This document shows positions 2,011 through 49,371 of a stretch of DNA of 64,000 bases, one piece after another. Position 1 is the first letter of the stretch, and each line of letters starts with the position of its first letter. The notes beneath the pieces are model-generated. The model was given only the letters and a program-made list of their open reading frames with translations. It did no database searches and was not told the DNA's origin. This DNA comes from Zygnema cylindricum (Eukaryota; Streptophyta; Zygnematophyceae; Zygnematales; Zygnemataceae), in assembly GCA_037447655.1 (NCBI GenBank), contig JBBHKE010003067.1, positions 86,159 through 150,158 on the forward strand, written 5' to 3'. A program made the position numbers and the translations under genes.

Positions 2011-2056
2011 TATTTATATTTATATATATATATGTATATATATATATATTTTTTTA
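1989..2056. repeat. Poly(A) plus (TA)n microsatellite
   Basis: A run of A residues is followed by alternating TA/TATG units and a short T run. It borders the 20-bp minisatellite that starts immediately to the right. Confidence 0.85.
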
Positions 2057-2960: not shown

Positions 2961-2989
2961 AAGAATAGAGAACTAGTTATTATACACTT

Positions 2990-3212
2990 CGAACGTGATC
3001 CTGCAGGAAATAAATGAATGGGACATTTATTTTGACGGTTAACATTTGATGTCAGATTTTATCCAAAGGCATATATCAGCGTCGAGATCTCAGAATGGTC
3101 ACTTTGGCATTTTCGGACGTTGCATGACCTGGCGCCAAGTGGAGAGATAACATCTGGTCGCGAGAATTTTGAGGAATATACGGACGAGTGTAACGTCCAC
3201 TCAGTGGCTTTG
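2990..3212 (+). repeat. 5' part of an old C/D-type copia LTR, split by Copia-A
   Basis: The sequence resembles, in opposite orientation, LTR segments of the minus-strand elements, for example the GGTCACTTTGGC and GTCCGCTTAATGGC regions near 35500 and 62100. Its right end is cut at CTTTG, and the LTR resumes at 8987. The true left end of this LTR is not visible and it seems truncated against the minisatellite. Confidence 0.7.
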
Positions 3213-5420: not shown

Positions 5421-8119
5421 AGACTAATATGATAGAAGGTGTCAAGCTTGGTGAAAAGGAATCCCATGTTTGTGATGGTTGTGCTCTAGGAAAGCTTCAT
5501 AAGCTTCCCCTACCACAGACTTCAGATTATCGAGCAAAGGACCTTCTCGGCCTTATCCACTCGGATGTATGGGGACCGGCCAAAGTTCCTTCCCTTGGTG
5601 GAAGTAAATACCTTGTTACATTCACTGATGACCACTCACGTTTCAGCCGAGTGTACTTTATGAAGGAGAAGAGCGAGGTCTTCACACATTTCAAGCATTT
5701 CCGGATCTGGGCGGAGAAACTTCACGGAAAATCGATCCTTGCTTTGCGATCTGACAACGGTGGAGAGTATGTATCAAATGCCTTTGCTGAATACTTGAAA
5801 GAAAATGGAATTTCTCATGAGTTTACTGTTCCTTACACTCTGGAACAGAATGGTGTGGCTGAAAGACTCAATAAGACCTTGACTGAATGTGCTATGTCTA
5901 TGATGATGGATAAAGATGTAGATCCGAAATTTTGGGGGGAAGCTTTTCAGTGTGCTTCTTACATTAAAAATAGAATAGAAACTAGATTTGTGAAGGATAA
6001 AACACCTTATGAAATGTGGACAGGAAGAAAGCCGAATGTTAGTCACTTTAGAGTATTTGGAAGTAAGTGTTTTATGTTGGATAACCTTCCAAATTGGAAA
6101 TTAAGTCCAAAATCTGTACTTGGGATATTTTTGGGCTATGATGATGAGTCCGTAGGATATAGAGTGTATAATCCTCAGAAAAATACAATTCAGATTGCTA
6201 GGAATATTCAAATCAAAGAAGAAAGTCAATTTGTTGATGTTTTTAGCATGAATGAGGCGGAAAAGGCAGAAAAATTGCAGGAATATGTCATCCTTGAGCA
6301 GATTCCTTTCAAGCAAACAACGGTTTCTTCATCTACATCTGAACTACCACATGTTTTGGGGCTGCCTGATCCACCTACTATTGCAACTACTACCGGACCA
6401 CCTCCTCCTCCTCCTCCTCCTCCTCCTCCAAGACTGCGTCGGGGACCAACAATTCTCGCTTCAGATTTTCCGGGGGGAAGAAGACAAAGCAGCCGGCTAA
6501 GAGGTGACCGAGTGGATCATGCTTATTGTGCAATCACAAGGGAGCCTCTTACCATTCAAGAAGCTTTCTCTGTTCCGGAAAAAGATCTGTGGATTGCTGC
6601 GGCAAATGACGAGATAAAGTCAATTATGGAGGCTCAAACTTGGGAGCTTGTGGAACTTCCACCGGATCGAAAAGCGATTGGTTGTAAGTGGGTATTCAAG
6701 TTAAAGCTGAATCCCGATAATACCATTGAGAGATATAAGGCCAGGCTTGTTGCTAAGGGGTATAGCCAGAAAGAGGGCATTGATTATGAAGAGACGTTCT
6801 CACCTGTAGTTCGTTTTCCTACTGTTAGGATTCTCTTATCTTTAGCAGCAATAGAGGATATGGAATTGCATCAAATGGATGTGAAGACAGCTTTCTTGCA
6901 TGGGGATTTGGAGGAAGTTATATATATGAAGCAACCAGAGGGATATGTAGAAAAAGGGAAAGAAAATCTGGTTTGTAAATTGTTGAAGTCCCTTTATGGT
7001 CTGAAGCAGGCTCCACGACAGTGGAACCTAAAACTAGATGAATTTTTGACAAATCTTGGCTTTACTAGAATCAGTTCAGATCATTCGGTTTATGTAATGG
7101 AAGGGGAAGATGGAGTGATATATATTGCTGTTTATGTTGATGATTTGTTGTTGCTAAGCAAATCTATTAATGAAATTAAAAAAATAAAAACAGCTCTAAA
7201 TTCCCGGTTTGAAATGAAAGATTTAGGGGAGGCTAAGTATATTTTGGGAATTCAGGTAGAAAGGGATAGAAAACAAAGACTAATTTATTTGACACAGAAA
7301 GAAGCCATTGGAAACATGCTTGAAAGGTTTGGCATGTCAGAGGCAAAGGGAAGTGCTACTCCCATGGAGTTCAGACAGAAAATAGAAGGGAAAGAATCAC
7401 ATGGTGGGGTTGTGATTGATGACTCTTTGGAGTCAGGGGAGGCAGATTTTATGTCCTCCATTCCTTACAGGCAGATAGTCGGAAGCCTCATCTACTTCAT
7501 GAACTGTACCCGTCCGGATATTGCAGCAGCTGTTGGAGCCTTAAGCCGAAGTTTGCAAAATCCAAAGAAGTCAGACTGGGAGGCGGCAAAGAGAGTTCTT
7601 CGATACCTTGCAGGAACTCGAAACCTCCGACTCTCTCTCGGTGGAGAGGAAGTAAAAATTCAGACATGGAGCGATGCGAGCTATGGAGATATGCCAAGCC
7701 GACGCTCTACTAGTGGATACATTCTGAAGATTGGAAGTGGGACATGCTGTTGGAGCAGCAAACTTCAGAAGGTGACAGCTCAGTCTACTATGGAGGCTGA
7801 GTACATGGCGGGTAGCGCAGCCGTCAAAGAGTTACTTTGGGTAAAGTCTCTCCTTCAAGAGCTTTTGTTTATGCAATCTGGACCTCAAGTAGTGTGGTGT
7901 GACAATCAGGCTGCCATTGCTATTGCATCTAACCCTAGCCATCACTTTAAGAGCAAACACATTGATATCAAGCTACACTTTGTGAGAGAGAAGGTTATGG
8001 GAAGAGTTTTGAAACTCAGTTATTTACCAGATGAGGAGATGGTTGCTGACATGATGACTAAACCCTTGCATGCACCTAAATTAAAGTTTTGCAGAGAGGC
8101 ATGTGGCTTAAGTGGCTAG
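5297..8119 (+). CDS. pol: Copia-A Pol: integrase, reverse transcriptase, RNase H
   Basis: This 940-residue ORF carries the Pol domains in Ty1/copia order. First comes a zinc-binding pre-integrase segment (WHKRLGH about residue 25, CDGC about 60). The integrase catalytic triad is D90, D153 and E189 with 35 residues between the last two. A proline run follows at ~370. RT has YVDD at 613-616. RNase H has acidic residues D793, E833 and D869, and the ORF ends in the usual HIDIK...MMTKPL tail. All key catalytic residues are present. The frame is open from 5222, so it overlaps gag in the -1 frame. The ATG at 5297 may not be the natural start; Pol is probably made as a Gag-Pol fusion or was separated by a 1-nt loss. 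Confidence 0.95.
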   Translation: MLYRMDLVNKVDFVYSSVLSENVLWHKRLGHVHNERLEKMVKTNMIEGVKLGEKESHVCDGCALGKLHKLPLPQTSDYRAKDLLGLIHSDVWGPAKVPSLGGSKYLVTFTDDHSRFSRVYFMKEKSEVFTHFKHFRIWAEKLHGKSILALRSDNGGEYVSNAFAEYLKENGISHEFTVPYTLEQNGVAERLNKTLTECAMSMMMDKDVDPKFWGEAFQCASYIKNRIETRFVKDKTPYEMWTGRKPNVSHFRVFGSKCFMLDNLPNWKLSPKSVLGIFLGYDDESVGYRVYNPQKNTIQIARNIQIKEESQFVDVFSMNEAEKAEKLQEYVILEQIPFKQTTVSSSTSELPHVLGLPDPPTIATTTGPPPPPPPPPPPRLRRGPTILASDFPGGRRQSSRLRGDRVDHAYCAITREPLTIQEAFSVPEKDLWIAAANDEIKSIMEAQTWELVELPPDRKAIGCKWVFKLKLNPDNTIERYKARLVAKGYSQKEGIDYEETFSPVVRFPTVRILLSLAAIEDMELHQMDVKTAFLHGDLEEVIYMKQPEGYVEKGKENLVCKLLKSLYGLKQAPRQWNLKLDEFLTNLGFTRISSDHSVYVMEGEDGVIYIAVYVDDLLLLSKSINEIKKIKTALNSRFEMKDLGEAKYILGIQVERDRKQRLIYLTQKEAIGNMLERFGMSEAKGSATPMEFRQKIEGKESHGGVVIDDSLESGEADFMSSIPYRQIVGSLIYFMNCTRPDIAAAVGALSRSLQNPKKSDWEAAKRVLRYLAGTRNLRLSLGGEEVKIQTWSDASYGDMPSRRSTSGYILKIGSGTCCWSSKLQKVTAQSTMEAEYMAGSAAVKELLWVKSLLQELLFMQSGPQVVWCDNQAAIAIASNPSHHFKSKHIDIKLHFVREKVMGRVLKLSYLPDEEMVADMMTKPLHAPKLKFCREACGLSG
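6402..6430 (+). repeat. (CCT)n microsatellite encoding a proline run in Pol
   Basis: Consecutive CCT/CCA codons encode about a dozen prolines in the variable linker between integrase and RT. The linker tolerates length change, so this tract is likely polymorphic between copies. Confidence 0.9.
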
Positions 8120-8135
8120 AAGAGTCGAAAGCTTT

Positions 8136-8142
8136 AGGGGAG
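8136..8142 (+). other. Copia-A polypurine tract
   Basis: AGGGGAG lies directly against the TG of the 3' LTR, the usual position for the plus-strand DNA primer. Confidence 0.85.
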
Positions 8143-8981
8143 TGTTGTTTTGGAAAGCTTTAGTCCTCTCTATGCCTCGAGTGTGAGGGAGAGAGAGTTT
8201 CACGAATTAGCATATGTTTGGTTGTAAGTTCGTTTCATTACATACCAAAATTGATGTTCCACTAGATCGGTAGGGAGTACACCTTTGTATACACTCTCGA
8301 GACACAAGTCACTACAAGAAAGAGGACACTCCAGAATATCCGATTGTTTGTGCATATATACACTTGAGGACAAAATGGCACATGGAGATTTGTTTACGGT
8401 GCCGAATGTGATATGTACGCGGCTGAGGGAGACCGCCGACAAATGCTGGTCCGTGTGAGCCACATACACGACAAATGACGTGGCATATAGAATCCTACTC
8501 CTTTGTAAATATCTAGTTAAGTAGATTTTTGTCTTTGTGTGGTTAGTTGATTAGTAAAGGAATCTTTTTGTATGACGTACCTTGTTCGGTTCGAGCCGCA
8601 GGTATTTACTGTACGGCTGGTATGCCTCCGTACGTTCAGCAGCATAGGCTTCGGTGTATATTAGTAGGACTTAGATAACTTTGAAGGTATGAACATTTTG
8701 TAGTCAAAACTGTACAGCCTGTTTTTGGCATTTTCATCTGTGGATATCTCACAGATCTGTTAGCAGAATTACTTGTAATTTTGTGTGTATGTTCATCTTG
8801 ATATTATCTACATTGTGGTAGATTTTCAGAGCTATTGTGTCTCTGGTTTGGTTTTTATCAACTGTTGAAGTTGCTGTTTTTCAGACTGGTTTTTGTGAAA
8901 GTTTCTTGCTTGGTTTGGTTCCGAGATGACTACACCGGCATCCTCATCGTCTTCGGTTCCGGCTGTTGTCTCAGAACAACA
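8143..8981 (+). repeat. Copia-A 3' LTR
   Basis: 839 bp with no indels relative to the 5' LTR. It carries the Gag start codon at 8926-8928, so it opens a short reading frame that runs out of the element into the flanking older LTR. Confidence 0.96.
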
Positions 8982-17219: not shown

Positions 17220-18393
17220 TGTTGATATTTGAGTATTTTCTAGGTTTTTATAGAAAATAATCAAGGGCAGTCTGTCCCTGACTCCCTTCTCTAAGCCCCC
17301 ACACTTATTGTAGTCACCGAAAACTTGATAAGGAGCTAGAGCCATGGCTGCCTAAGCTCACTAGAGAAGACAGGAGGTGGATTAGGTAGATTTACCAAAA
17401 GGTACTTGACGGACCCAGGAATTGATCCTGGTACTTGCTGTTCGCCAAGTTACCGTAGCCGTTAGCTCTAACCGTTAAGTTTAGGACTAATATTACGATA
17501 TATAGGGTTTGATAAAGATATAAAATTTTACAAGTAGATTAATTTGTTTAACGGTTAATAGATACTTAGTGCATAGATATAGTTTGATTTAGTACGGAGT
17601 ACGCTATGGGGACGAAACGGATACCGCGCATTTGTTTCGATAGCGAAACAAATACCTCGCGTCGAATTTCAGCGGCTAAGATTATAGCCGGTTTTGATCG
17701 GACGGCCGCGATAGGCGCCGCGATCATGGTAGAGGTAATTTTGGCGTTTTACGGTCTTTGTCATGTCAGATGACAAGTGGCGTGATAACATTGGATTACG
17801 GGAACTCCGGAGATTACGGGAACAAATCCTGATTTGACACGTGTTGACATTTTGGCGATGTTGTACAATGGTCATACAGAAAGTACACCGGTACCTGTAC
17901 TTTTATGTACGACATAATAATTTGATTGGTGCCATACTTGAGTAGATAGATTTTTAGAGGGGGAATAGGACTTAGATAATTATGGGTAGGTATTTGCCTC
18001 TCCTTGAGAGCACCTTGTATAAAACGCAAACTTTGGCCAGCCATAACTATTAATTTACTTGACCATTTTCAGTGATTGTTTTTGCTGCCGACTCAAGGGA
18101 GTCCAGACTACATAGTGGTGTAGTAAGCTAGAGTTTTATTTTGCCAGGGTGGCTGCATTTCAAAGGGAAAGTCAAAGTGGGTGAAAGTGTCCAAATCTCA
18201 TATTCTAACTTTGCATTCTGTGGTGGAACTTAGCACATAGAAAATGTTATTTCACAGAGGTGAATCTATATTGGGGTTCTGACTGTCAAGTGGTCAGTCA
18301 TTTGGGTTTATATCAAGTTAGGAGTCGGCACTATCTGGATTAGCTTATTTGGATCTGCCTACTCTGAGGGCGAATGGAGGTCTCACAGTTTCA
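17220..18393 (+). repeat. Copia-B1 5' LTR
   Basis: It has the same layout as the B2 LTR: antisense tRNA-like block (about 17405-17490), GTAC hairpin, TATAAA near 18017 and the Gag ATG at 18374. Confidence 0.9.
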
Positions 18394-20293
18394 AGTTATG
18401 GGCCCACCATCTAGGGTGCCTATGTTCGATCGAAATGAATTCACTTATTGGGAGTTTACTATGGAGGGATTGCTTTTCGAGAAGCACTTATAGGGAATTT
18501 TTTCGGGAAAACTGAGATGTCCGCCACCTGGCTTTGGAAGAGCTTACTATGGAGAATCATCTGTGGCTGGCCAGAATATCAACCGAAGTTCAGATGCAAC
18601 GGAAGGTGAAGGGTAAAACCTTTCCGTGAATGGGGAAATAGTGGAGAAGGAATAAAAGACACCTATGGTGAGGAGAGCTAGGCTTTCAGCTATGGTACCA
18701 CTTGTAGGGATTAAAACTGAAGAAAATGACAGAAAACCATGGAAATACAAAAACACTATAGCAAAACATCTCATACTTAGATATGCATCTAAGTTTATAG
18801 TTATCACTCTTTAAAATCTTACCAAGTCTTCAGAGATATGGGAAGAACTAATTCAGATTTATAAAAGTGAGACAATTTAGAGACAGCAGTTAGTAAAACA
18901 GGAAATAGAGGCATATGTTTATAAAGGCGGTAACATGATATAGTTTTGCAATGATATTGCTGCGTTATATGTTGATCTTGCTAGTGTGGGATATATAGAA
19001 TCTGAGGAGAGAAAGATTAATACACTACTCATGAAACTCCCAGATGAGTACGAAAACATCATTTGTCGTATGTAGGCAATTGATGGTTCTTCATGGACTT
19101 GGAGCTTTACCATGGGGATAATTCTTGTGAGGGAAAGCACTATGGAGCTTCGTAGGGGAAGTGACTGGGTGAAAGCATTTACAGCTGGCAGTGATTGGCG
19201 GAAGCGTGATGAGAGGAACCGTGGTGACGAGCGGAAGCATAATGAGAGGAAGAAAGACAAAGGTAAACGATATCGGAACTTTTGGTGGAAAGGAAGGGAG
19301 AGGAAAAGAAATGGGAGCTTTGAAAAATGGGATTTGCTTCCTTTGTAGGGAACCGGGCCATTATATGGAGGAATGCCCTTGTTTGGAGAAACATAGAAGT
19401 TGGAATGTGGATGAGGAGGAAGAAGGGGAAGAGGAGAAAGAGGATGAAGATATTTTAGAGCTTCTCCGGATTAGTAGTATGGGGAAGAGAGAAAAAAACA
19501 CAAAAATTCCACAAAAGCAACAGTGTACTTTTGGAGGTATAACGAAAGTAAAAAGAGAGGAGGTACTTGAGGATGTCGAGGAGTGTAAAGTGTATGACTT
19601 AGAAATGAGAGAGTCAGATCTAGGATCCATAAGCAAAAACGGGAAAGATAAAATTAATGGGGATAATTTTATTGATAATATGGAAACAAAAATCTGGTCG
19701 GAAATAGAGACTTCAACGGATTCTGAGAAAAAAAGAGAAGTGAAACTCGAAGAGGTTTTAAAGGATAGATGAGAAGAGAATATTTGATTAAATGTTTAGG
19801 GGAGAAGAAATATTTATTGGGAATTAAATTAAAAAGTGATAGTGGAAAGAATTCCATGGGAGAGAGTGAGGGAAGTTAAAAAAATGGGGTAATTATCATG
19901 GATAAAAATATAGTACGGAAGATATAGAACTTATGAGGAACTTAGTGGGGACTAGTGTTTTATGGGAATATTTGGGGCCGGATGGATTTGACATCACTAC
20001 TTGGTGTGATATTGCTTCTGAAGATGTGCCTGTGAAAGGGTTATCATCCGGGTATGTGTTGCAGGTTGGGGATAGGGCTGACTGTTGGAAATGCAAAAGG
20101 GAAAGTAGATTCTGGTTGGATCAAAAGCGGAGGAGGTGGAGAAAATCTTTGATCGGATTTATGATAAGTGGGGTGCTAAATAAAATGTGTGATGCAATTA
20201 TTATTTTAGTTCATCTAATGCATTGTTTTAAATACGCGAGTATTTTTCTTAAGTTTTTTAAAAGAATTAGAAAAAGAAAAAATGAATAGGGGA
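18374..20293 (+). pseudogene. gag: Copia-B1 Gag-only ORF (broken)
   Basis: It is collinear with the intact 678-codon B2 ORF. The start lies in the LTR. Stops include TAG for Trp near 18489 and further nonsense codons before 19110. Longer open pieces (19191-19772 and 19933-20289) retain the knuckle CFLCREPGHYMEEC in one frame and the RNase H-like tail (GPDGFDITTWCDIASEDVPVKG). The 33-nt repeat expanded in B2 is nearly single-copy here. Confidence 0.88.
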
Positions 20294-20354
20294 AGGATTG
20301 TTTGTTTATTTGTTTTTAAGAGTTGAAACGAAGTAGATTAGAAAATAAGCGGAG

Positions 20355-21527
20355 TGTTGATATTTGAGTATTTTCTAGGTCTTTATAGAAAAAAGAGCAA
20401 AGGCAGTCTGTCCCTGACTCCCTTCTCCAAGCCCCCACACTTGTTGTAGTCACTGAAGGCTTGATAGGGAGCTAGAGCCATGGCTGCCTAAGCTCACTAG
20501 AGAAGACAGGAGGTGGATTAGGTAGATTTACCAAAAGGTACTTGACGGACCCAGGAATTGATCTTGGTACTTGCTGTTCGCCAAGTTACCGTAGCCGTTA
20601 GCTCTAACCGTTAAGTCTAGGACTAATATTACGATGTATAAGGTTTGATAAAGATTTAAAATTTTACACGTAGATTAATTTGTTTAACGGTTAATAGATA
20701 CTTAGTGCATAGATACAGTTTGATTTAGTACGGAGTACGCTATGGGGACGAAACGGATACCGCGCATTTGTTTCGATAGCGAAACAAATACCGCGCGTCG
20801 AATTTCAGCGGCTAGGATTATAGCCGATTTTGATCAGACGGCCGCGATAGGCGCCGCGATCACGCAAGAGGTACTTTTGGAGTTTTACGGTCTTTGCCAC
20901 GTCAAATGACACGTGGCGTGATAACATTGGATTACGCGAACTCCGGAGATTACGGAGACAAATCCAGATTTGACACGTGTCGACATTTTGGCCATGTTGT
21001 ACAATGGTCATATAGAAAGTACACCTGCAGCTGTACTTTTCTGTACGACAAAGTAATTTGATTGGTGCCATATTTCAGTAGATAGAGTTTTAGAGGGGGA
21101 ATAAGACTTAGAAAATTTTGGGTAGTTAGCTGCCTCTCCCAGAGAGCACCTTGTGTAAAAGGCAAACTTTGGCCTGCCATAACTATTAATTTACTTGACC
21201 ATTTTCAATGATTCTTTTTGCTGCGAACTCAAGGGAGTCTAGGCTACACAGGGGTGTTGTCAATGAGAGTTTTATTCTGCCAGGGTGGCTACATTTCTAA
21301 GGGAAAGTCAAAGTGGGTGAATGTGTCCAAATCTCATATTCTAACTTTGCATTCTGTGGTGGACTGAGCACACAGAAAGTGTTATTTCACATGGTGAATC
21401 TATATTGGGGTACTCATTGTCAAAAGGTCAGTCATTTGGGTTTATATCAAGTTAGGAGTCGGCACTATCTGGATTAGCTTATTTAGATCTGCCTACTCTG
21501 AGGGGGAATGGAGGTCTCAGAGTTTCA
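20355..21527 (+). repeat. Copia-B1 3' LTR
   Basis: It is preceded by the purine-rich AAAATAAGCGGAG. It ends ATGGAGGTCTCAGAGTTTCA, carrying the Gag start codon, and runs into Ty3 RT sequence. Confidence 0.9.
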
Positions 21528-22703: not shown

Positions 22704-22903
22704 TCAGATGTTGATATTTGAGTATTTTCTAGGTCTGTATTAGGATAGAAAAAAGAGCTGAGGCGGTCTGCCTCTAACTCCCCTATCCAAGCCCCCACAC
22801 TTGTTGTAGTCAATGAAGGCTGGATAGGGAGCTAGAGCCATGGCTGCCTAGGCTCTCTAGAGAAGATAGGGGGTGAAATAGGTAGACTTACCAAAAGGTG
22901 GTT

Positions 22904-22942
22904 GACGGACCCAGGATTTGATCCTGGTACCTACCGTCCGTC
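22904..22942 (-). other. tRNA-like T-arm/acceptor minihelix, antisense in the LTR
   Basis: A 7-bp stem GACGGAC/GTCCGTC (22904-22910 with 22936-22942) encloses a 5-bp stem CCAGG/CCTGG with a 7-nt loop (22911-22927). On the minus strand this reads as a T-arm stacked on an acceptor-like stem, with a B-box-like AGGATCAAATCCT. The minus-strand D-arm-like part TTAAAGCTAACG lies upstream (about 22955-22975). A second copy is in the 3' LTR (about 26122-26160). Confidence 0.6.
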
Positions 22943-23357
22943 ATCTTCCATTCGACGTTAGCTTTAACCGTTAGGCCTAGGATACACATTAGTACGAGTT
23001 ATATTTGATAAATATATAAATTGTTACATGTAGATTAATTCGTTCAACGGCGAACAGATAATTAGTGCATAGATACAGTTTTGATTTAGTACGCAGTACG
23101 GTACGCGGACAGAACGGATACCGCGCATTTGTTTCGATAGCGAAACAAATACTATGCGTCGAATTTCAGCGGCTAGGATTATAGCCGGTTTTGATCGGAC
23201 GGCCGCGATAGGCGCCGCGATCACGGAAAAGGTACTTTTGGCGTTTTACGGTATTTTTCCACGTCAGATGATACGTGGCGTGATAACATTGGATTACGGG
23301 AATTTCGGAGATTACAGGAACTAATCCTGATTTGACACGTGCCGACATTTTGGCCAT

Positions 23358-23411
23358 GTCGTACAATGGCCATACAGAAAGTACACCGGCACCTGTACTT
23401 TTCTGTACGAC
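23358..23411. other. GTAC-rich hairpin in the LTR upstream of TATA
   Basis: GTCGTAC and TACAGAAAGTAC pair with GTACTTTTCTGTACGAC around a 10-nt loop. Equivalent hairpins are present in LTRs of Copia-C, Copia-D and the old LTR at 8987, always upstream of the TATA box or its equivalent. Confidence 0.65.
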
Positions 23412-23515
23412 ACACTAATTTGATTGGTGCCGTACTTCAGTAGATAGAGTTTTAGAGAGGGATTAGGACTTAGAAAATTTTGGGTAAGTAGCTGCCTCTC
23501 CCAGAGAGCACTTTG

Positions 23516-23521
23516 TATAAA
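23516..23521 (+). promoter_or_regulatory. Copia-B2 LTR TATA box
   Basis: TATAAA lies 188 bp upstream of the hairpin-distal part of U5, in a context (CTCCCAGAGAGCAC..TTG then TATAAATGGCA) shared with Copia-C LTRs. The 3' LTR copy is at 26734-26739. Transcription would be expected to start about 25-35 bp downstream. Confidence 0.65.
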
Positions 23522-23871
23522 TGGCAAACTTTGGCCAGCCATAACTATCAATTTACTTGACCATTTTCAGTGATTCTTTTTGCTGCGGACTCAGGGGAGT
23601 CCAGGCTACACAGGGGTGTAGTCGGTCAGAGTTTTTGTTTGCGAGGGTGGCTGCATTTCTAAGGGAAAGTCAAAGTGGGTGAATGTGTCCAAATCTCATA
23701 TTCTAACTTTGCATTCTGTGGTGGAACTGAGCACACAGAAAGTGTTATTTCACAGGGGTGAATCTATATTGGGGTTGTGACTGTCAAGGGGTCAGTCACT
23801 TGGGTTTATATTAACTTGGAGTCGGCACTATCTAGATTAGCTTCTTTTGGATCTGCATACTCTGAGGGCCA

Positions 23872-25908
23872 ATGGAGGTCTCAGAGTTTCAGGTTATGGG
23901 CCCACCATCTAGGGTGCCTATGTTCTATAGAACAGACTTCACTTATTGGGAGTTCACGATGGAGGGATTGCTTTTCGAGAAGCACTTGTGGGGAATTGTT
24001 TCGGGACAAGTGAGGTGTCCACCACCGGGATTTGGAGGAGATCACTATGGAAAATTATCCGGGGCTGCCCAGAAAACCAACCGGAGTTCGGATGCAACGG
24101 AAGGTGAAGGGAAGATCATGACTGTGGAAGGGGAAATAGGGGTGAAGGATAAAGGGACACCTATGGTGAGGGGAGCTAGGCTCTCGCCTACGGTTCCACT
24201 TGTGGGGGTTATAACTGAACCAAAAACTGAAGAAAATGATAGAAAAATTTGGGAATATAAAAACACTATAGCAAAACATCTCATACTTAGATATGTGTCT
24301 AAGTCTATAGCTATCACTCTTTTAAATCTAACCAAGTCGTCGGAAATTTGGGACACACTAATTCAGATTTATAAGAGTAAGACTATACAGAGGCAGCAGT
24401 TAGTAAGACAAGAGATAGAGGCCTATGTTTATAAAGGCGGTAGCATGATAGAATTTTGTAATGATATTGCTGCGCTATATGTTGAGCTTGCTAGTGCGGG
24501 ATATGTAGAATCTGAGGAGAGAAAGATTAATACACTAATCATGAAGCTCCCATATGAGTACGAAGATATCATTTACCGTATGCAGGGAATGGATGGCTCA
24601 TCGTGGACTTGGAGCTTTACCATGGGGATAATTCTTGTGAGGGAAAGCACTTTGGAGCTTCGTAGGGGAAGGGACAGGGTCAATGCTTTTTCAGCTGGTG
24701 GTGATTGGCGGAAGCGTGATGAGAGGAACGGCGGTGAAGAGCGGAAGCGTGATGAGAGGAACGGTGATGATGAGCGGAAGCGTGATGAGAGGAACGGTGG
24801 TGACGATCGGAAGCGTGATGAGAGAAAGAAAGACAAAGGTAAACCTTATCGGAACTTTGGCGGAAAAAGAGGGAGAGGAAAAGAAAGGGGAGCTTTGAAA
24901 AAGGGGGTTTGCTTCTTTTGTAGGGAACCGGGTCATTATATGGAGGAATGCCCTTGTTTGGAAAAACTTAGAAGTTGGAATGTGGATGAGGAAGAAGAAG
25001 GGGAAGAGGAGAAAGAGGATGAAGATATTTTAGAGCTTCTCCGGATTAGTAGTATCGGGAAGAGTGAAAAGCACATAGAAATTCCACGAAGGCAACAATG
25101 TGCTTTTGGAGGTATAAGGGAAGTAAAGAGAGAGGAGGTACTTGAGGATGTCGAGGAGTGTAGAGTGTATGACTTAGAAATGAGAAAGTCAGTTCTAGGA
25201 TCCATAAGTGAAAACGGGAAAGATAAAATTAATCAGGATAATTTTATAGATAATAGGGAACCAGAAAACTGGTCGGAAAGGGAGACTTCAACATATTCCG
25301 AGGAAAGGGGAGAAGTGAAACTCGAAGAGGTTTCAAAGGATAGGGGAGAAGAGAAATATTTGATTAAAGGTTTAGGGGAGAAGAAATATTTATTGGGAAT
25401 TAAATTAGAAAGTAATAGTGGAAAGAATTCCATGGGAGAGAGTGAGGGAAGTTCAGAAAATGGGGTAATTATCATGGATAAAAATATGAGTACGAAAGAT
25501 GTAGATCTTATGAGGAACTTAGTGGGGAGTAGTGTTTTTTGGGAATATTTGGGGGTGGATGGATTTGACATCACTACTTGGTGTGACGTCACTTGTGAAG
25601 ATGTGCCTGTAAAAGGGTTAGCATCAGGGTGTATGTTGCAGATTGGAAATGGGGCTGGCTGTTTGGATCGCAAGAGGGAAATCGGTTTGTGTGTGGATGA
25701 AAGAGTGATGAAGTGGATAAAATCTTTGCTCGGATTTATGAAAAATGGGATGTTAAATAAAATGTGTGATGCAATTATCATTTCAGTTTATTTAATGCAC
25801 TGTGTTAAATACTTAAGTTTTATGAAAGGAAAAGGAAAATGGAAAAAGAAAAGAAAAAAAAAAAAGGGGGTGTTTGTTTACTTGTTTGTGGAAGTTGAAA
25901 GAAAATAG
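23872..25908 (+). CDS. gag: Copia-B Gag fused to RT-tail/RNase H remnants
   Basis: The ORF is 678 codons, uninterrupted, starting in the last 20 nt of the LTR. Residues 7-15 (QVMGPPSRV) are encoded by the primer-binding site. The Gag N-terminus is followed by a UBN2-like region (IWDTLIQIYKS... about residue 160). An 11-residue charged repeat (RKRDERNGGEE type) lies at about 280-322. The CCHC knuckle is C347, C350, H355, C360. After RRQQCAFGGIRE the family protease is missing. From residue ~500 the sequence follows the end of copia RT (LGEKKYLLGIKLE) and then RNase H (FDITTWCD near 565-572; MKWIKSLL...KMCDA later). Catalytic pockets look incomplete. It is probably a capsid/RNA-packaging protein; enzymatic activity is unlikely. 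Confidence 0.92.
   Translation: MEVSEFQVMGPPSRVPMFYRTDFTYWEFTMEGLLFEKHLWGIVSGQVRCPPPGFGGDHYGKLSGAAQKTNRSSDATEGEGKIMTVEGEIGVKDKGTPMVRGARLSPTVPLVGVITEPKTEENDRKIWEYKNTIAKHLILRYVSKSIAITLLNLTKSSEIWDTLIQIYKSKTIQRQQLVRQEIEAYVYKGGSMIEFCNDIAALYVELASAGYVESEERKINTLIMKLPYEYEDIIYRMQGMDGSSWTWSFTMGIILVRESTLELRRGRDRVNAFSAGGDWRKRDERNGGEERKRDERNGDDERKRDERNGGDDRKRDERKKDKGKPYRNFGGKRGRGKERGALKKGVCFFCREPGHYMEECPCLEKLRSWNVDEEEEGEEEKEDEDILELLRISSIGKSEKHIEIPRRQQCAFGGIREVKREEVLEDVEECRVYDLEMRKSVLGSISENGKDKINQDNFIDNREPENWSERETSTYSEERGEVKLEEVSKDRGEEKYLIKGLGEKKYLLGIKLESNSGKNSMGESEGSSENGVIIMDKNMSTKDVDLMRNLVGSSVFWEYLGVDGFDITTWCDVTCEDVPVKGLASGCMLQIGNGAGCLDRKREIGLCVDERVMKWIKSLLGFMKNGMLNKMCDAIIISVYLMHCVKYLSFMKGKGKWKKKRKKKKGVFVYLFVEVERK
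23892..23906 (+). promoter_or_regulatory. Copia-B2 primer-binding site (initiator tRNA-Met anticodon arm)
   Basis: GGTTATGGGCCCACC begins at the first base after the LTR. It is the exact reverse complement of GGUGGGCCCAUAACC, the anticodon arm of plant initiator tRNA-Met (from general knowledge). That predicts priming by a cleaved 5' tRNA half. The same site is read as Gag codons. Confidence 0.85.
24706..24838 (+). repeat. 33-nt coding tandem repeat in Copia-B2 Gag
   Basis: About 3.7 copies of CGGAAGCGTGATGAGAGGAA plus 13 nt encode RKRDERNGGEE, RKRDERNGDDE, RKRDERNGGDD and a final RKRDERK. Copia-B1 has roughly one and a half units at the same place. The alternating basic/acidic peptide sits just before the zinc knuckle. 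Confidence 0.9.
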
Positions 25909-25926
25909 ACTAGAAAATAAGGGGAG

Positions 25927-27109
25927 TGTTGATATTTGAGTATTTTCTAGGTCTGTATTAGGATAGAAAAAAGAGCTGAGGCGGTCTGCCTCTAACTCCC
26001 CTATCCAAGCCCCCACACTTGTTGTAGTCACTGAAGGCTGGATAGGGAGCTAGAGCCATGGCTGCCTAGGCTCTCTAGAGAAGATAGGGGGTGAAATAGG
26101 TAGACTTACCAAAAGGTGGTTGACGGACCCAGGATTTGATCCTGGTACCTACCGTCCGTCATCTTCCATTCGACGTTAGCTTTAACCGTTAGGCCTAGGA
26201 TACACATTAGTACGAGTTTTATTTGATAAATATATAAATTGTTACATGTAGATTAATTCGTTCAACGGCGAACAGATAATTAGTGCATAGATACAGTTTT
26301 GATTTAGTACGCAGTACGGTACGCGGACAGAACGGATACCGCGCATTTGTTTCGATAGAGAAACAAATACTATGCGTCGAATTTCAGCGGCTAGGATTAT
26401 AGCCGGTTTTGATCGGACGGCCGCGATAGGCGCCGCGATCACGGAAAAGGTACTTTTGGCGTTTTACGGTATTTTTCCACGTCAGATGACACGTGGCGTG
26501 ATAACATTGGATTACGGGAATTTCGGAGATTACAGGAACTAATCCTGATTTGACACGTGCCGACATTTTGGCCATGTCGTACAATGGCCGTACAGAAAGT
26601 ACACCGGCACCTGTACTTTTCTGTACGACACACTAATTTGATTGGTGCCGTACTTCAGTAGATAGAGTTTTAGAGAGGGATTAGGACTTAGAAAATTTTG
26701 GGTAAGTAGCTGCCTCTCCCAGAGAGCACCTTGTATAAATGGCAAACTTTGGCCAGCCATAACTATCAATTTACTTGACCATTTTCAGTGATTCTTTTTG
26801 CTGCGGACTCAGGGGAGTCCAGGCTACACAAGCGTGTAGTCCGTCAGAGTTTTTGTTTGCGAGGGTGGCTGCATTTCTAAGGGAAAGTCAAAGTGGGTGA
26901 ATGTGTCCAAATCTCATATTCTAACTTTGCATTCTGTGGTGGAACTGAGCACACAGAAAGTGTTATTTCACAGGGGTGAATCTATATTGGGGTTGTGACT
27001 GTCAAGGGGTCAGTCACTTGGGTTTATATTAACTTGGAGTCGGCACTATCTAGATTAGCTTCTTTTGGATCTGCATACTCTGAGGGCCAATGGAGGTCTC
27101 AGAGTTTCA
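25927..27109 (+). repeat. Copia-B2 3' LTR
   Basis: 1183 bp, near-identical to the 5' LTR, preceded by a G-rich purine tract. It also carries an A-run and GGGGG tract just upstream in the ORF end (25846-25870). Confidence 0.95.
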
Positions 27110-27114
27110 TCAGA

Positions 27115-34953: not shown

Positions 34954-35012
34954 ACTTAGCTATGAACCCAGATCCATTGAACGTGGGTACCCTAGAGGGT
35001 GGGCCCATAACC
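34954..35012 (-). pseudogene. Copia-C gag start and PBS remnant
   Basis: 59 bp match the beginning of the Copia-C internal region, including the PBS complement GGTGGGCCCATAACC at 34998-35012. It shows that the LTR at 35013-36059 once served as the 5' LTR of a further element to the left, now truncated. Confidence 0.85.
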
Positions 35013-36059
35013 TGCAATTCTGTGTCCTCCATTGGACTACAGAATACAGGAAGCCTCTAGATAGTGATTAACTAACCCACTAGCAATGGAAACCACTGCT
35101 ACTGAAGTCGACAAGCACACAACTTGACTGCACCCCTGTGTACCGTGGACTCCCTTGAGTCTGTAGAAAAAGAAATCTCTGAAAACGCCCAACCACACGA
35201 TAAGTTATAGCGTGGCAAAAATGCCAATTTTATACAAACTTTGAGAGAGAGAGAAGACTATCTACCTAATTTTTCTAAAGTCCTAGTTTTTCCTAGTTCT
35301 CTCTCACAGCTCCTATCTACTGCCTAAACAAACCAATCGCAACAGTGTATAGTACATGAAAGTACTACTGCCGATGTACTTTTTGTACGTCCTTTGTACG
35401 ACAAGGTCATTAAGCGGACGCGTGTCCATTTTCCACTCGTCCGTACGTTCCTCAAAATTCCCGCGACCGAATGATGTCTCTCCACATGGCGCCAGGTCAT
35501 GCCACGTCACTAAATGCCAAAGTGACCATTCCGGGATTTCGGCGATGATGTGTGCCGTTAGTTTTGACGCGAAATTTAATCTCAGCCGTAATAAATTGCG
35601 TGATATTTGTTTTGCTGTCGAAACAAAATGCGCGATATCCATTTCAAATGAGTACAGTACTTCGTACTTTGTAAAACTGTATCTATGCGTGGCGTAAAGA
35701 GTTTCAGTTAAATCATTTCTGTATAACACAATAGTTTAAATACTAATGAAACCCTATATCTCTTAGCGGACTTCTACGACAGATTAGTTAGAGCTAACGG
35801 CTACGCCGCGCTCTGCCGGTCGGGGGTTCGAGTCCTGCTGGACTCAACCTTTTGTTGAGAGTGACTGAAGTCACTTTTTAGTCCTTCCTATGGAGCTGAG
35901 GCAGCCATGGCTCTATTGCTCTCTCTCTCTCCTTCAGTGACTACTACAAGTATGGGGGCGAGAGAGAAGAGATAGAGGCAGTCTGCCTACATTTTCTTTA
36001 CATATTTTCCGCTAATTAATTTAGACCTAGAAAATACAATAAAACTACTTATTTCAACA
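35013..36059 (-). repeat. Copia-C LTR 1
   Basis: 1047 bp. In minus orientation it starts TGTTGAAATAAG and ends GACACAGAATTGCA. It carries TATAAA on the minus strand (35229-35234), a tRNA-like block on the plus strand (35766-35852) and the Gag ATG near its end. Purine tract AATGGGAG (minus) follows at 36060. Confidence 0.92.
35766..35852 (+). other. tRNA-like block antisense to the Copia-C LTR
   Basis: The plus strand contains TTAGAGCTAACGGCTACG (D-arm/A-box-like) and GGTTCGAGTCC (35825-35835), an exact match to the Pol III B-box consensus GGTTCGANTCC. A hairpin CTCAAC/GTTGAG follows. Equivalents occur at about 42200, 47590, 57000 and 62345. No complete cloverleaf can be drawn, so it is tRNA-derived rather than a tRNA gene. 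Confidence 0.6.
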
Positions 36060-36770
36060 CTCCCATTATTTTCTAGTCTAATTTTAACTTTTCTTTTAAA
36101 CCACATTTTTCCTTACAATATTTTGATTCTGGAGAGAGCACCGATTTGGTCATCATGTCAGCCACCATTTCCTCATCAGATGTATATACAAGATTGAATA
36201 TATTATTCTCCACTTTTTCTCTTACAAAACTTAATCTTATGTCCATATGTTTAGCCTTAAAATGATGTTTTGGATTGGCTACAATTGCTATGGCTGCTTG
36301 ATTATCACAAAATACTTCATGCACTCCCTCCTTCATATACCCCAGTTCTTGCAGCAAGGACTTGACCCACATCAACTCTTTCACAGCAGAACAAGAGGCC
36401 ATGTACTCAGCCTCCATAGTGGACAGAGCAACCACCTTTTGTTGCTTACTGCTCCAACAGCAAGCACCTTCCCCAACATACAACACATACCCAGAAGTGC
36501 ACCGTCTCATAGGTGCGTCCCCATAACTGGCGTCACTCGAAGTAGTGATGTCAGTGTGCTCCCCTCCCAAATGCAATCATAACTCTCTAGTTCCCACCAG
36601 ATATCTCATGACTCTTTAAGTTGCCTCCTAGTCTCTCTTCCTTGAATCATTAAGACTCCTACTGAGTACTCCAACTGCTGCCGCTATGTCCGGTCTGGTA
36701 CAGTTCATAAAACAAATTAAACTTCCTACGACCTGTCTATAAGGGATAGATTTCATAAATTATCTTTCCT
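36060..36770 (-). pseudogene. Copia-C1 RNase H
   Basis: The minus strand carries the copia RNase H: DITTSSDASYGD, STMEAEYMA, EVFCDNQAAIAI and the MMTK tail (36073-36576, 167 codons open). The catalytic acids are present here. Beyond 36576 a frame break and stops precede the RT tail. Confidence 0.88.
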
Positions 36771-36779
36771 CTGCACTCA

Positions 36780-37600
36780 TCTAATCGTCTAAGATCATCA
36801 CTCCTCCTTCTACACTCCCATCACTTTCTTTTTTCAAGTCCATGGGAGTGGTACAACTGTTAGCATTTTCCATCTGAAATTTCTTAAGCATATTACCTAT
36901 TGCTTCTTTTTGAGTAAGTATGATAATCTTCTTCCCCCTATCTCTCTCCATTTGAATCCCCAAAATATATTTTGCCTCCCCTAAATCTTTTATATCAAAT
37001 CTACTTCTAAGATCTTTCTTTAACTTATTGATATTTTCCAAAGATTTACTCAACACAAGCAAATCATCCATATAAACTGCAATAAAAATCACACCATTCT
37101 CATCTTCAAACAAATAGATAGAATGGTCAGAGCTGATACGGATATATCCTAGACCGATAAGAAACTCATATAGTTTCTTATTCCACTGTCGGGGAGCCTG
37201 CTTCAATCCATATAAGGATTTTATGAGCCTGTAGACTTTGCTCTCTTCTCCTTCTTCCACGAACCCCTCGGTTTGTCTCATGAAAATATCTTCCTCTTAC
37301 TCACCATTAAGAAAGGCAGTCTTAATGTCCATCTGGTGAATCTCCATGTCTTCCGCTGCTGCCAGACTGAGGAGAATCCTTACTGATGGGAACCGAACAA
37401 CTGGAGCAAAGGTCTCCTCATAGTCAATCCTCTTCTTTTGGGTGAACCCCTTCGCTACCAATCGAGCCTTATTTCTCTCAATGGTATTATCTGGGTTCAG
37501 TTTTAGTTTAAATACCCATTTACACCCAATAGGTTTTCTGTGTGGAGGACAATCAGCTAGTTCGCAAGTGTTAGCTTCCATAATAGAAGCCATCTCATCA
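36780..37600 (-). pseudogene. Copia-C1 reverse transcriptase
   Basis: Two adjacent minus-strand ORFs cover RT. 37297-37593 has [22 protein letters not shown]. 36781-37281 has [25 protein letters not shown] and DLGEAKYILGIQ. The active site reads YMDD rather than YVDD. A frame break near 37285 splits the domain. Confidence 0.88.
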
Positions 37601-39070
37601 TTTATGGCTCTAATCCATCTTTTTTCTCTAAACCATTCACTGCCTCCGAGAAAGACTGAGGCTCATCTGGGTGAGATAGCTTAGTTACCTTATGAACGGC
37701 TTGTTTTCCCTATATCGTTTTGCTGCTCCTCCCACCTCCTTCAAACTCCGAAGCTGGAATGGATGGAAGTCTAGATTTCTTCTCACTGTCTCATCGGCTC
37801 CCTTGTCCATGGAAGCTGGTTCTAGTCCCGCCTCTTCTATCTCCTCGAATTCCATAGGAGTATGTGAGGTTTCCGGTGAGTCTCTTGTATCTTAGATCTC
37901 CCCTGAATCTGCAATCACGGTTTCACTCATGTCTGTTTCGGCTAAGACCGAGTTCTTCTCACTTTTCGACTGAAATCTGTTTCTTATCTTCTTTGTATAT
38001 TTGAAGGGGTTAAATGACTTCCCCCTAAATCCTTCATATCAAATCTGCTTCTAAGATCTGTCTTTAACTTATTGATCTTTTCGAAGGATTTACTAAACAC
38101 AAGCAGATCATCCACATAAATTGCAATAAAAATGACACCATTCTCATCCTCAAACATATAGATAGAATGGTCAGAGCTGATACGGATATATCCCAGACTG
38201 GTAAGTAACTCATCTAAATTCTTATTCTACTGTCGGGAAGCTTGCTTCTACCCATATAAGGACATTATGAGCCTGCAGACTTTGCTCTCTTCTCCTTCTT
38301 CCACTAACTCCTCAGGTTGTCTCATGAAAATTTCTTCCTCTAACTCACCATTGAGAAAAACAGTCTTAATGTCCATCTGATGTATCTCCATGTCTTCCGC
38401 TGCTGCCAGACTGAGGAGAATCCTTACTGATGGGAACCGAACAACTGGAGCAAAGGTCTCCTCATAGTCAATCCCCTCCTTTTGGGTGAACCCTTTCGCT
38501 ACCAATCGAGCCTTATATCTCTCAATGGTATTATCTGGGTTCAGTTTTAGTTTAAATACCTATTTACACCCAATAGGTTTTCTGTCTGGAGGACAATCCG
38601 CTAGTTCCCAAGTATTTGCTTCCATGATAGAAGCCATCTCATCATTAATGGCTCTAATCCATCTTTCTTTCTCAGGACTATTCACTGCCTCAGAGAAAGA
38701 CTGAGGCTCATCAGGGTGAGATAGCTTAGTTACTTTATGAGCGGCTTGTTATTCCTGTAATCTTTTGCTGCTCCTCTTTCCTCCTTCAAACTCCGAAGCT
38801 GGAATGGATGGAAGTCTTGGATTTCTTCTCACTGTCTCATCGGCTCCCTTGTCCATAGAAACCGGTCCTTGTCTCGCTTGTTCTATCTCCTCGAAGTCCA
38901 TAGGAGTATGTGAGGTTTCTGGTGAGTCTCGTGTATCTTGGATCTCCCCAGAATCTGTCATCACGATTTCACTCATGTCCCTTTCGGGAACGATCGAGTT
39001 CTCCTCACTTTGGGACTCAAATCTGATTCTTATCTTCTTTGTATATGTGAAGGGGTCAAATGACTTCCCT
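36981..39070 (-). repeat. 1045-bp internal tandem duplication in Copia-C1
   Basis: 36981-38025 and 38026-39070 are direct repeats with a constant offset of 1045. Each spans from the integrase-RT linker to the RT palm end. The junction at about 38020-38026 joins GACTTCCCC (linker) to CCTAAATC (RT) at a short TCCCC microhomology. The duplicate RT piece includes an open stretch at 38248-38505. Confidence 0.9.
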
Positions 39071-39999
39071 TCATCCATGACAACTAAGTGTTTGACCAGA
39101 ATGATATCTTTTTTTGCTAAGTAATAGACTGTATATCCAATAACATCCTCATCATATCCTACAAAGTATCCAGGTTTTCCCTTAGCATCTAGTTTCCAGT
39201 TTTTCATATCCGTGTCAAGACTGTAAACTTGGCTACCGAATACTTTAAGGTGTGAGATATCTGGTTTCTTTCCAACCCATCTCTCATAAGGTGTCACTCC
39301 TTTTACAGCTGAGGTAAGAACTCTATTCTTAATGTAGTTGGCAGAGTTCATTGCTTGTGCCCAAAATCTCTTTCATATTTTCTTGTCTGCCAACATACTG
39401 CATGTACTATCTCCTAGTGTTCGATTCAACCTCTCAGCTACCCCATTTTTTTCCGGGTTATATGGTATAGTTTTCTGTTGATGCACTCCCTCATCTCTCA
39501 GATATTCCTTAAACTCGTTAGAGGTATATTCCCCCCCATTATCACTCCTTATCCTCTTAATGGGGGCTTCATGCAACTTCTCATTCCAAGCTTTATATTC
39601 TTTGAAGTAAGTTGATGCTTCAGACTTTATTTTCAGAAAGTAGACTCTAGAGTATCTAGACCAGTCATCAGTTATTGTCATCATAAACCTCTTTCCTCCA
39701 ACCGAAGGTACTTTTGCGGGTCCCCAAATATCTGTGTGGACCAAATCTAGCACTTTCTCACCTCCATATGTGGCGGCTTTGGGAAAGGGAAGTCTGTGAG
39801 CCTTTCCTTGAGCACAACCACTACAATCATCCATCATTTCATTATCCCCAAACTGAATGCCATCTACTACCCCAAGCTTTTTCATTTCCCTCAACATATC
39901 AAAATGCACATGCCCCAACCGCTTATGCCAAATCATCACCTTAGGAACACCAACATAATAAGCATTCTTCTTTTCATTACTCAGGTTAAGCCTAAACAT
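38749..39999 (-). pseudogene. Copia-C1 integrase
   Basis: Minus-strand ORFs 39373-39999 (208 codons) and 38749-39351 (200 codons). The first carries IWHKRLGHVHFD, CSGCAQGK, VHTDIWGP, RSDNGGEYTS and NGVAERLNRT, so zinc and catalytic residues are all present. The second has the C-terminal GKKPDISHLKVFGS and the acidic linker. They are split by a frame break near 39360. Confidence 0.9.
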
Positions 40000-40340
40000 T
40001 CTTTGGCTACCCTTATCTGCCGTGAAGTAAACTTCATCCCATACTTAGCTGTAAAGACTCCCTTTCTGGTGAAGGTATCAAATTCTTTGTCATCTAACAC
40101 AGACGTAGACACAAGATTTTTACTCAGCTGAGGAATGTAGAGTACATCTGAGAATGTAAGTATAGAAGTCATACCCTCCACTAAGACTTTCAAATCTATT
40201 GATCCCACTACATCTGTAGTAACCACTCTCCCATCGCCATACTCTATTTCTACAGTAGGGATCTTTCTTAGCTTAGTGAAGTGTTCTTTATCACGACACA
40301 TATGCATGGATGCACCTGAGTCGATGATCTATCCTTCATG
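39981..40340 (-). pseudogene. Copia-C1 protease
   Basis: Minus strand: an active-site DSGAS coding stretch at about 40305-40325 preceded by an in-frame TAG at the expected Trp, then LRKIPTVEIEYGDGRVVTT and LSKNLVSTSVLDD. A 1-nt loss near 40040 breaks the frame after GVFTAKYG. Confidence 0.85.
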
Positions 40341-41463
40341 TGGAGCTTCCCAAATTGCTCCAAAGGCACACTTCTGTCTCCGAGGGATCTCCTTCTCCTC
40401 CAGATTCTCTTGAAGAAGAAGCTCCCCATCCTCCTCAGAGGACTCATCCTTGGTTTCTCTTGTCAATTTAGTAACCACAAGTGCCTTTTTTTTCCCTCCG
40501 GAAGAACCCCCTCCACGGTTCTCTTGGAGCCTCAGCTCCGACAACTTGACACAGTCTGCGATGAAATGTCCCGGCTTTTTGCAAAAACGACAAAGACCCT
40601 TTGGGGGCCTCGGTCCCCAAAAATTATCTCTTTCCCCTCTATAAGGTTTCTTTGGTTCCTTCCCCCATCGGTCCCCTCCTGCTGCTAGAGCTTGAATGCT
40701 CTTTCCTCCTCTCCTAATCTCCATTGTGTTTTCCTGCACAAGTATCATTTTAACCACGGTGTTCTTTTTCTATGAACTATCAGGCATTTCTTGTACTTCG
40801 TACACTATATTCTCAAACTCATTCGGTAACTTCATGATAAGAGTGTTAACTTTCATTTTCATTGTGCCTTTCCACCCGGCACTTTCCATCTCTATATACA
40901 AACAAAAAATATCATTACAGTAATCTAACATCTTTCCTCCTTTGTAAGTGTAACCACTAGTTTTTGCTCAGCCAACTGGAGCTGTTGAATAGTTCCAGCT
41001 CTATAAATCTCCACCAAACTCACCCACAACTCCTTGGCCTTGTAAATGTGAAGATGAGGGGTGGCCAAAGCTTGAGTGAGTTGCCTCAGAATGAAGTTTT
41101 TGCAGCCATGTTTACATCCTCCCACATTTGAGTATTGTTCTCCACGGTCTTCACGATCGCCACTCCCGATAGTGTGGCAATAGGAGTGAGGGGTGTCTCT
41201 TTCCCTTTCTCTTTTTCAAACACACTGCTGTCCCCATCATCTGCCTCCTCCGCTGAGGAAGCCGTAGCTGTAGGAAACCTTACTCCTCCAAATCCTGGTG
41301 GAGTTCCTGAAAGTGGACGTTTCACTTGTCCATTGACGATACCCCAGTATCATTTTTCGCACAAAGCTCCCATCATCATGGCCTCCCAATAGATGAACCC
41401 AGATCCATTGAACGTGGGTACCCTAGAGGGTGGGCCCATAACCTGCAATTCTGTGTCCTCCAT
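40329..41463 (-). pseudogene. gag: Copia-C1 Gag
   Basis: The start ATG is at 41463-41461, inside LTR 2. MEDTELQ is followed by the PBS-encoded VMGPPSRV. TGA interrupts codon 38 (41350-41352). A frameshift near 41095-41120 follows the PIATLSGVAI stretch. The C-terminal part (40329-40757) keeps the knuckle CRFCKKPGHFIADC and the acidic EESSEEDGELLL-like tail. Confidence 0.88.
41428..41443 (-). promoter_or_regulatory. Copia-C1 primer-binding site
   Basis: On the minus strand GGTTATGGGCCCACC begins right after the LTR. It is identical to the Copia-B PBS and complementary to the initiator tRNA-Met anticodon arm. Copies in C2 and C3 lie at about 46815-46830 and 52684-52699 (C3 has AGTTATG, one change). 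Confidence 0.85.
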
Positions 41464-42491
41464 TGGACTACAGAATACAGGAAGCCTCTAGATAGTGATT
41501 AACTAACCCACTAGCAATGGCAACCACGGCTACCAAAGCAGACAAACGGACAATCTGACTGCACCCCTGTGCATCGTGGACTCCCCTTAGTCCGTAGAAA
41601 AAGAAATCTCTGAAAACGCCCAACTAGGCGATAAGTTATAGGGTGGCAAAAATGCCAATTTATACAAACTCTCAGAGAGAGAGAGGACTATCTACCTAAT
41701 TTTTCCTAAGTCCTAGTTTTTCCTAGTTCTCTCTCATAGCTCCTATCTACTGCCTGTACGAACCAATCCCAACACTGTATAGTACTAGAAAGTACTACTA
41801 CCGATGTACTTTTTGTACGGCCTCTGTACGACAAGGCCATTAAGCAGACGCGTGTCCAATTTTCACTCGTCCGTACGTTATTCGGAATTCCTGCGACCAA
41901 ATGATGTCTCTCCACGTGGCGCCAGGTCATGCCACGTCACTAAATGCCAAAGTGACTATTCCGAGATTTCGGCGATGATATGCGCCGTTAGATTTGACGC
42001 GAAATTTAATCTCAGCCGTAATAAATACTTGCGCGATATTTGTTTCGCTGTCGAAACAAAATGCGCGATATCCATTTCAAATGAGTACAGTACTTCGTTC
42101 TTTGTAAAACTGTATCCATGCGTGGCGTAAAGAGTTTCAGTTAAATCATTTCTGTATAACACAATAGTTTAAATAGTAATGAAACCCTATATCTCCTAAC
42201 GGACTTCTACGACAGACTGGTTAGAGCTAACGGCTATATCGCGCTCTGCCGGTCAGAGTTCGAGTCCTGCCGGACTCAACCTTTTGTTGAGAGTGACTTA
42301 AGTCACTCTTTAGTCCTTCCTATGGAGCTGAGGCAGCCATGGCTCCATTGCTCTCTCTCTCTCCGTAAGTGACTACAACAAGTATGGGGGCGAGAGAGAA
42401 GAGATGGAGGCAGGCAACCTACATTTTCTTTACATGTTTTCCGCTAATTAATTTAGACCTAGAAAATACAATAAAACTACTTATTTCAACA
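41444..42491 (-). repeat. Copia-C LTR 2
   Basis: 1048 bp. The first ~320 bp (41444-41760) are identical to LTR 3 at the matching positions, and the identity continues left into gag to about 41081. The TATA box is at 41659-41664 (minus). Confidence 0.92.
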
Positions 42492-44150: not shown

Positions 44151-44159
44151 TTGCTGCTC

Positions 44160-45755: not shown

Positions 45756-45779
45756 ACTTCTGTCTCCGAGGGATCACCT

Positions 45780-49204: not shown

Positions 49205-49371
49205 GTCCTTTTCGGAAACGACCGAGTTCTCCTCACTTTCGGACTCGAATCTGATTTTATCTTCTATATATATTTGAAGGGATCAAATGACTTTTCTTCA
49301 TCCATGACAACTAGGTGTTTGACCAGGATGATATCCTTCGTTGCTAAGTCATAGACTCTATACCCGTTAAC

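Follow-up and report, generated by a model that had tools for sequence, protein, structure and literature searches.

Do retrotransposons that keep gag and lose pol live as parasites of complete relatives, or do they contribute a capsid of their own? This question is raised by an element at positions 22709-27109 of a 64,000-nucleotide stretch of Zygnema cylindricum DNA (the window below; GenBank assembly GCA_037447655.1, contig JBBHKE010003067.1, positions 86,159 to 150,158 of the forward strand, with element coordinates counted from its first letter). An earlier note, made from the sequence alone, had described the element as Copia-B, a mobile Gag-only form with a 678-codon open reading frame (ORF) and a vestigial reverse transcriptase (RT) and RNase H. 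We read the Copia-B family (B below) as a TR-GAG-like, non-autonomous Ty1/copia family that makes its own selected Gag and takes Pol from relatives, and we give this reading a probability of about 0.8. A pol-less copia family of multiple subfamilies that keeps Gag under selection bears on the choice between parasite and capsid contributor for gag-only elements. The anatomy and mobility of the short form are solid; that capsid is provided in cis and Pol in trans is likely, and a plausible interpretation of the sequences. The features on which the argument draws are the following (LTR, long terminal repeat; VLP, virus-like particle):

22704..22708 (left) and 27110..27114 (right), no strand: target-site duplication (TSD) TCAGA, flanking both ends of the element
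22709..23891, + strand: 5' LTR, 1183 bp, with TG..CA ends
23872..25908, + strand: 678-codon ORF comprising Gag, linker and Pol remnant
23872..23891, + strand: start of the ORF in the 5' LTR, its ATG at 23872, 20 bp before the LTR end
23892..23906, + strand: primer-binding site (PBS) GGTTATGGGCCCACC, directly 3' of the 5' LTR and coding
24220..24681, + strand: Gag capsid region, residues 117-270, with Pfam PF14223 and Copia VLP matches and low omega
24697..24827, + strand: 33-bp tandem units 5' of the knuckle, their number differing among copies
24907..24954, + strand: CCHC zinc knuckle, residues 346-361, a zf-CCHC match below the Pfam cut-off
24982..25140, + strand: acidic linker, residues 371-423, homologous to the pre-protease stretch of pol-bearing relatives
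25312..25833, + strand: Pol remnant, residues 481-654, RT tail and RNase H
25912..25926, + strand: polypurine tract (PPT) AGAAAATAAGGGGAG, directly 5' of the 3' LTR
25927..27109, + strand: 3' LTR, 1183 bp
17220..21527, + strand: older copy of the short form, LTRs 17220-18393 and 20355-21527, ORF broken

The element at 22709-27109 is a complete Ty1/copia-type LTR retrotransposon, in which LTR pair, TSD, PBS and PPT are all present. Its LTRs are 99.24% identical (9 differences over 1183 bp) and enclose an internal region of 2035 bp. At the PBS, GGTTATGGGCCCA adjoins the LTR end directly; we tentatively take this site to be of the half tRNA-Met type. New relative to the earlier note is that the ORF begins within the 5' LTR, so that the LTR end and the PBS are coding. 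The same layout is found in the C-type and D-type copies of the window and in the element with its gag start at 3996, and the printed E-type copy is without this ATG. The ATG is also present in the 3' LTR (27090-27109), from where translation could begin and run into the adjacent host sequence.

The ORF follows Gag through the knuckle, as the earlier note had read it: Retrotran_gag_2 (PF14223) matches residues 116-238 (E 1.1e-16), residues 126-258 match the solved capsid of the Copia VLP by sequence (E 2.9e-4), and the zf-CCHC match at residues 346-361 scores 18.7 bits against a cut-off of 20.8. The linker behind the knuckle aligns locally with the pol-bearing relatives (scores 71-76 vs a maximum of 59 among 50 shuffles), and this homology ends just short of the protease motif. 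The proposed jump from there to the RT tail and RNase H is likewise borne out, since the Pol remnant aligns in a single frame with these regions of pol-bearing elements in the window (E as low as 4e-12) and protease, integrase, RT and RNase H families give no Pfam match in the ORF up to an E value of 1. Relative to those elements the remnant carries several net in-frame deletions, and the TMEAEY segment of RNase H is absent from it; loss of this segment removes a catalytic glutamate of the RNase H fold. Codons 371-678 stayed open in 0 of 5000 first-order Markov control runs, so the open frame is beyond chance. Protein relatives elsewhere were not found at E 1e-3, either for the whole ORF (8000 candidates scored) or for residues 1-275 (1536 candidates).

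That the deletion form itself transposes had been proposed from two window copies, and the wider genome bears this out. The older copy has an LTR-LTR identity of 92.7% and, depending on which of two alignments is used, 10 or 11 in-frame stops; it is flanked by the near-duplication TAAAG/TAAGG (4 of 5 bases match), distinct from the TCAGA of the younger copy. An LTR query of the 352.8-Mb genome, in which 40 of 6395 first-look candidates were scored, led to stretches from which we compared 19 internal regions. This set counts the two window copies, takes L010 over its first part only, and omits internal fragments in L014 and L019 as well as two more in L031. All 19 have the short form, in the order Gag-linker-RT tail and many with their own PBS and PPT, the linker length varying by 72 and 30 nt among subfamilies. 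With up to 3 mismatches allowed, a 39-base word of the Pol remnant is present at 551 places in the genome, counted as places and not as whole elements, and its reversed control at 0. LTR-LTR identity ranges from 91.4 to 99.3% across the 10 copies measured, six LTRs stand alone between matching 5-bp duplications (solo LTRs), and the ORF is likewise open in L012, L017 and L022, which are spread over several subfamilies.

A second, systematic sample took one in five of the first 100 sites that match the B-type LTR end and PBS exactly (n=20, with 1.3-kb slices read starting about 0.9 kb downstream). Four of the 20 show the short form, 15 are members of a family that carries pol (family A), and one has no match. 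Neither the 19 internal regions nor the 20 slices, which cover part of the genome's copies, contain a full-length element with the LTR of the window copy, which the earlier note had named among the findings that would speak against its reading. Two candidates were rejected on the way. L010 had looked like a long, pol-bearing B, and its extra 4.7 kb proved to be a nested insertion with ATGTTG at both ends; this insertion (about 1390-6086, minus strand) matches copia Gag (38%) and not the pol query used, and is possibly a second gag-only family. A count of 6246 LTR-end places was not kept as a count of B copies: two mismatches admit C-type ends, and 15 of the 20 exact places sampled are family A.

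Is the protein of these short copies selected? We estimated the ratio of non-synonymous to synonymous change (omega) by the Nei-Gojobori method (NG86) between subfamilies, in two sets of disjoint pairs, with codons that contain gaps or stops excluded, as was the ORF after codon 645 because its frame differs among copies. Omega is 0.37-0.49 over residues 1-116, falls to 0.17-0.21 in the capsid (bootstrap 0.10-0.33), and is 0.37-0.44 in the nucleocapsid, 0.59-0.64 in the linker and 0.69-0.81 in the Pol remnant, where the bootstrap interval (0.44-1.49) includes 1; seven further pairs place the remnant at 0.59-1.42. Within subfamilies omega is 0.50-0.86, and in the remnant the contrast of between and within is absent (P 0.84). 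Purifying selection on Gag between the short subfamilies is well supported, and the sequence of the Pol remnant is not detectably constrained. The selection on the protein that the earlier note had suspected is supported for Gag and is not detected in the sequence of the Pol remnant.

The frame of the remnant nevertheless seems to be kept. Up to codon 645, indels shared by subfamilies are net multiples of 3 (12, 33n, 72, 30 and 90 nt) at all sites except one, and private indels are mostly of 1 or 2 bases. To count stops we used six of the ten measured copies, picked solely by an LTR identity of at least 97% (measured on part of the LTR for two of them, 442 bp in L022 and 749 bp in L023b). Across these young copies the remnant has taken at least 115 substitutions with 4.8 stops expected vs 0 seen (P 0.008), and linker plus remnant 203 substitutions with 8.7 expected vs 0 seen (P 1.7e-4); these P values are rough, because the counts come from a spanning tree with a transition weight of 3 that treats a recombining family as a tree. 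No single-pair test of the remnant was significant alone (P 0.08-0.23, 7 pairs), and an earlier eight-copy test (P 2e-5) was discarded as biased, its copies having been picked for openness, and replaced by the age-picked one. In the systematic sample, three of the four short copies have an open frame that runs from codon 371 on through the remnant, and L040 has a stop at codon 611; L037 has a stop at codon 352.

It seems, then, that the frame of the Pol tail is kept and its sequence is not. One tentative account, which we rate as rather doubtful, is that openness of the ORF to a few bases short of the PPT is selected whatever the tail encodes, the Pol tail being neutral in sequence and selected in frame. 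Translation might have to run through to the RNA 3' end, one possible reason being that a long 3' untranslated region would expose the RNA to nonsense-mediated decay, or any suitably long C-terminal extension might serve the particle. A frame-kept, sequence-free Pol tail was not found described in a literature search limited to the open-access subset. The puzzle that remains is why more than 150 dead codons are kept readable, and the contrast between capsid and tail makes the reason testable. The earlier note had suggested that the Pol tail may have a new structural role, taken here as recruitment into the particle. The absence of stops in the six age-chosen copies and the three systematically sampled copies open through the remnant are what such a role would predict, but an omega whose interval includes 1, in the main comparison and with values up to 1.42 in the further pairs, and the lack of 10 to 30 codons of the tail in subfamilies argue against it, and we consider it unlikely.

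We next asked where the missing enzymes could come from. Among the 15 family A samples, 14 match protease and integrase, and one, cut by a nested LTR, matches the protease region only. A and B agree exactly over the final 20 bp of the LTR, which begin at the ATG, and over the PBS. C copies have this PBS too, and D and E differ from it at one position; the PPT of B recurs unchanged in E and A and with one mismatch in C-type copies. In one A copy the LTRs, compared over 1049 bp, are 99.1% identical, so that it and the window copy fall into one age class; it has a TSD (CTCTT) and a PPT core, GACTAGAAAATAAGGGGAG, that matches the B PPT. In the two stretches of it that were read, Gag is open over 318 codons and the region from nucleocapsid to integrase over 433 codons. 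The earlier note had proposed a search for C/D-type donors with matching LTR ends; family A, which has its LTR 3' end, PBS and PPT in common with B, is a candidate donor, and the A copy is not a full-length B.

Signs of recombination accompany these shared signals. The window copy is a mosaic relative to L017, diverging by 12-14% over about the first 600 bp of the internal region and by 2-3% over about the last 800 bp. Three of the four sampled short copies (L037, L049 and L054) join a B internal region to an LTR only 71-73% like that of the window copy (174-343 bp aligned) and look as if their LTR had been exchanged. Together, mosaic copies and exchanged LTRs suggest template switching between co-packaged RNAs.

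From these elements we propose the following history and life cycle. A full-length ancestor would have lost protease, integrase and the RT core through deletion, and the RT tail and RNase H would have been worn down by later in-frame deletions. What is left of the transcript would bear the cis signals (LTR ends, PBS and PPT) and code a Gag maintained by selection. Translated from the element RNA, this Gag would package that RNA into VLPs and co-package others, the latter step being suggested because copies are mosaic. RT, RNase H and integrase would be supplied in trans by pol-bearing relatives that have the LTR 3' end, PBS and PPT in common with B; family A could be such a supplier.

Several observations weigh against this proposal. 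In the capsid, the contrast between and within subfamilies is only suggestive (Fisher P 0.063), and part of the constraint on Gag could date back to full-length ancestors, even though every subfamily in the comparison already has the short form. Copies of all ages carry an in-frame stop in 13 of the 18 others, within codons 371-645 in 7 of the 18, as expected of old insertions rather than intact elements. The exception among the shared indels is a 1-nt deletion at codon 495-496 in B2, L016 and L031, whose recurrence within a purine run we take as probable homoplasy. On the donor side, the tblastn matches share one frame in 5 of the 14 (L039, L045, L050, L053 and L055), the A and B LTRs are about 71% identical over 950 bp (two A copies read), A Gag is 39% identical to B Gag, and action of A Pol on B is conjectured.

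Some of these points would suit a pure parasite, whose short RNA is packaged by the Gag of complete elements and copied by their Pol, the ORF being a dispensable relic. In its favour are the stops in 13 of 18 copies, the stops within Gag that two copies among the six youngest carry (codons 7 and 175), and a Pol remnant with omega compatible with 1. This reading does not account for a capsid omega of 0.17-0.21 between subfamilies that are short already, for an ORF open in the window copy and three others from several subfamilies, or for shared indels that are net in frame at every site bar one, and it appears improbable to us. Least credible of all is the idea that a full-length Copia-B persists in the genome and that the short forms arose from it by separate deletions: such an element, if rare, could escape the regions and slices read, but the Gag-linker-RT-tail order is the same in all compared copies with linker length alone varying, pol is found in 0 of 19 internal regions, and the A copy read differs from B in Gag (39%) and LTR (71%). 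Altogether, these comparisons favour B as a family that codes its own selected Gag and probably borrows Pol.

The window holds further elements. A near-complete pol-bearing copia lies at 3213-8981 (LTRs 99.8% identical, TSD CTTTG, gag start within the LTR), with two long ORFs, on the protease side and the integrase side, in different frames. At 34962-47878, self-comparison reveals C-type copia elements in an apparent LTR-internal-LTR-internal-LTR arrangement. An LTR-like stretch at 49363-50391, 72% identical to B, sits between two parts of another element and is perhaps a solo LTR, and a dense direct-repeat array occupies 2050-2956 (self-comparison).

How does B compare with known systems? Large retrotransposon derivatives (LARDs) and terminal-repeat retrotransposons in miniature (TRIMs) have by definition no coding capacity, whereas B codes a 678-codon ORF with a constrained capsid. 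Athila elements belong to Ty3/gypsy, and B belongs to Ty1/copia. In the pol-less Athila of Arabidopsis, which are non-autonomous, gag or env ORFs are under purifying selection and inter-family recombination creates new lineages (Marco and Marin 2008, PMC2410132); B is likewise non-autonomous and pol-less, with a selected gag ORF and signs of recombination, and the portions of that account available to us mention no in-frame Pol tail. In Physcomitrium patens, truncated (tRLC5) and full-length (RLC5) forms of one copia family occur, tRLC5 is transcribed and tRLC5/RLC5 insertions are polymorphic (PMC7466625); no Gag-only ORF is described there, the word gag being absent from the main text. Among copia lineages, a 1/2tRNA-Met PBS is reported for Osser, Bryco and part of Gymco-II (Neumann et al. 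2019, PMC6317226, in the part available). B may resemble them in its PBS, which we read tentatively as half tRNA-Met type, but these lineages are set by a phylogeny of integrase, RT and RNase H, domains that B is without. Ty1 mini-elements with cis signals transpose when proteins come in trans, and Gag stabilises Ty1 RNA (PMC4974528, as far as the available text goes). The closest likeness is to TR-GAG elements (Chaparro et al. 2015, via Kirov et al. 2021), which are known from plants and described in the accessible part of PMC8704663 as having two LTRs and a single Gag ORF and as lacking a functional pol; in Arabidopsis, a copia TR-GAG whose Gag ORF has 562 residues has been seen transposing in ddm1 (PMC8704663). 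B has two LTRs with a target duplication, a single ORF with a Gag domain, and no functional pol, as judged by the missing protease, integrase, RT and RNase H matches and the deleted TMEAEY segment, though with an in-frame pol remnant. Pol-less elements with a selected Gag are therefore already known (TR-GAG, pol-less Athila), and B is a variant among them, whose own features, set against the general TR-GAG description rather than against individual other TR-GAGs, are the in-frame eroded RT and RNase H, the ORF start in the LTR and the read-through of the PBS.

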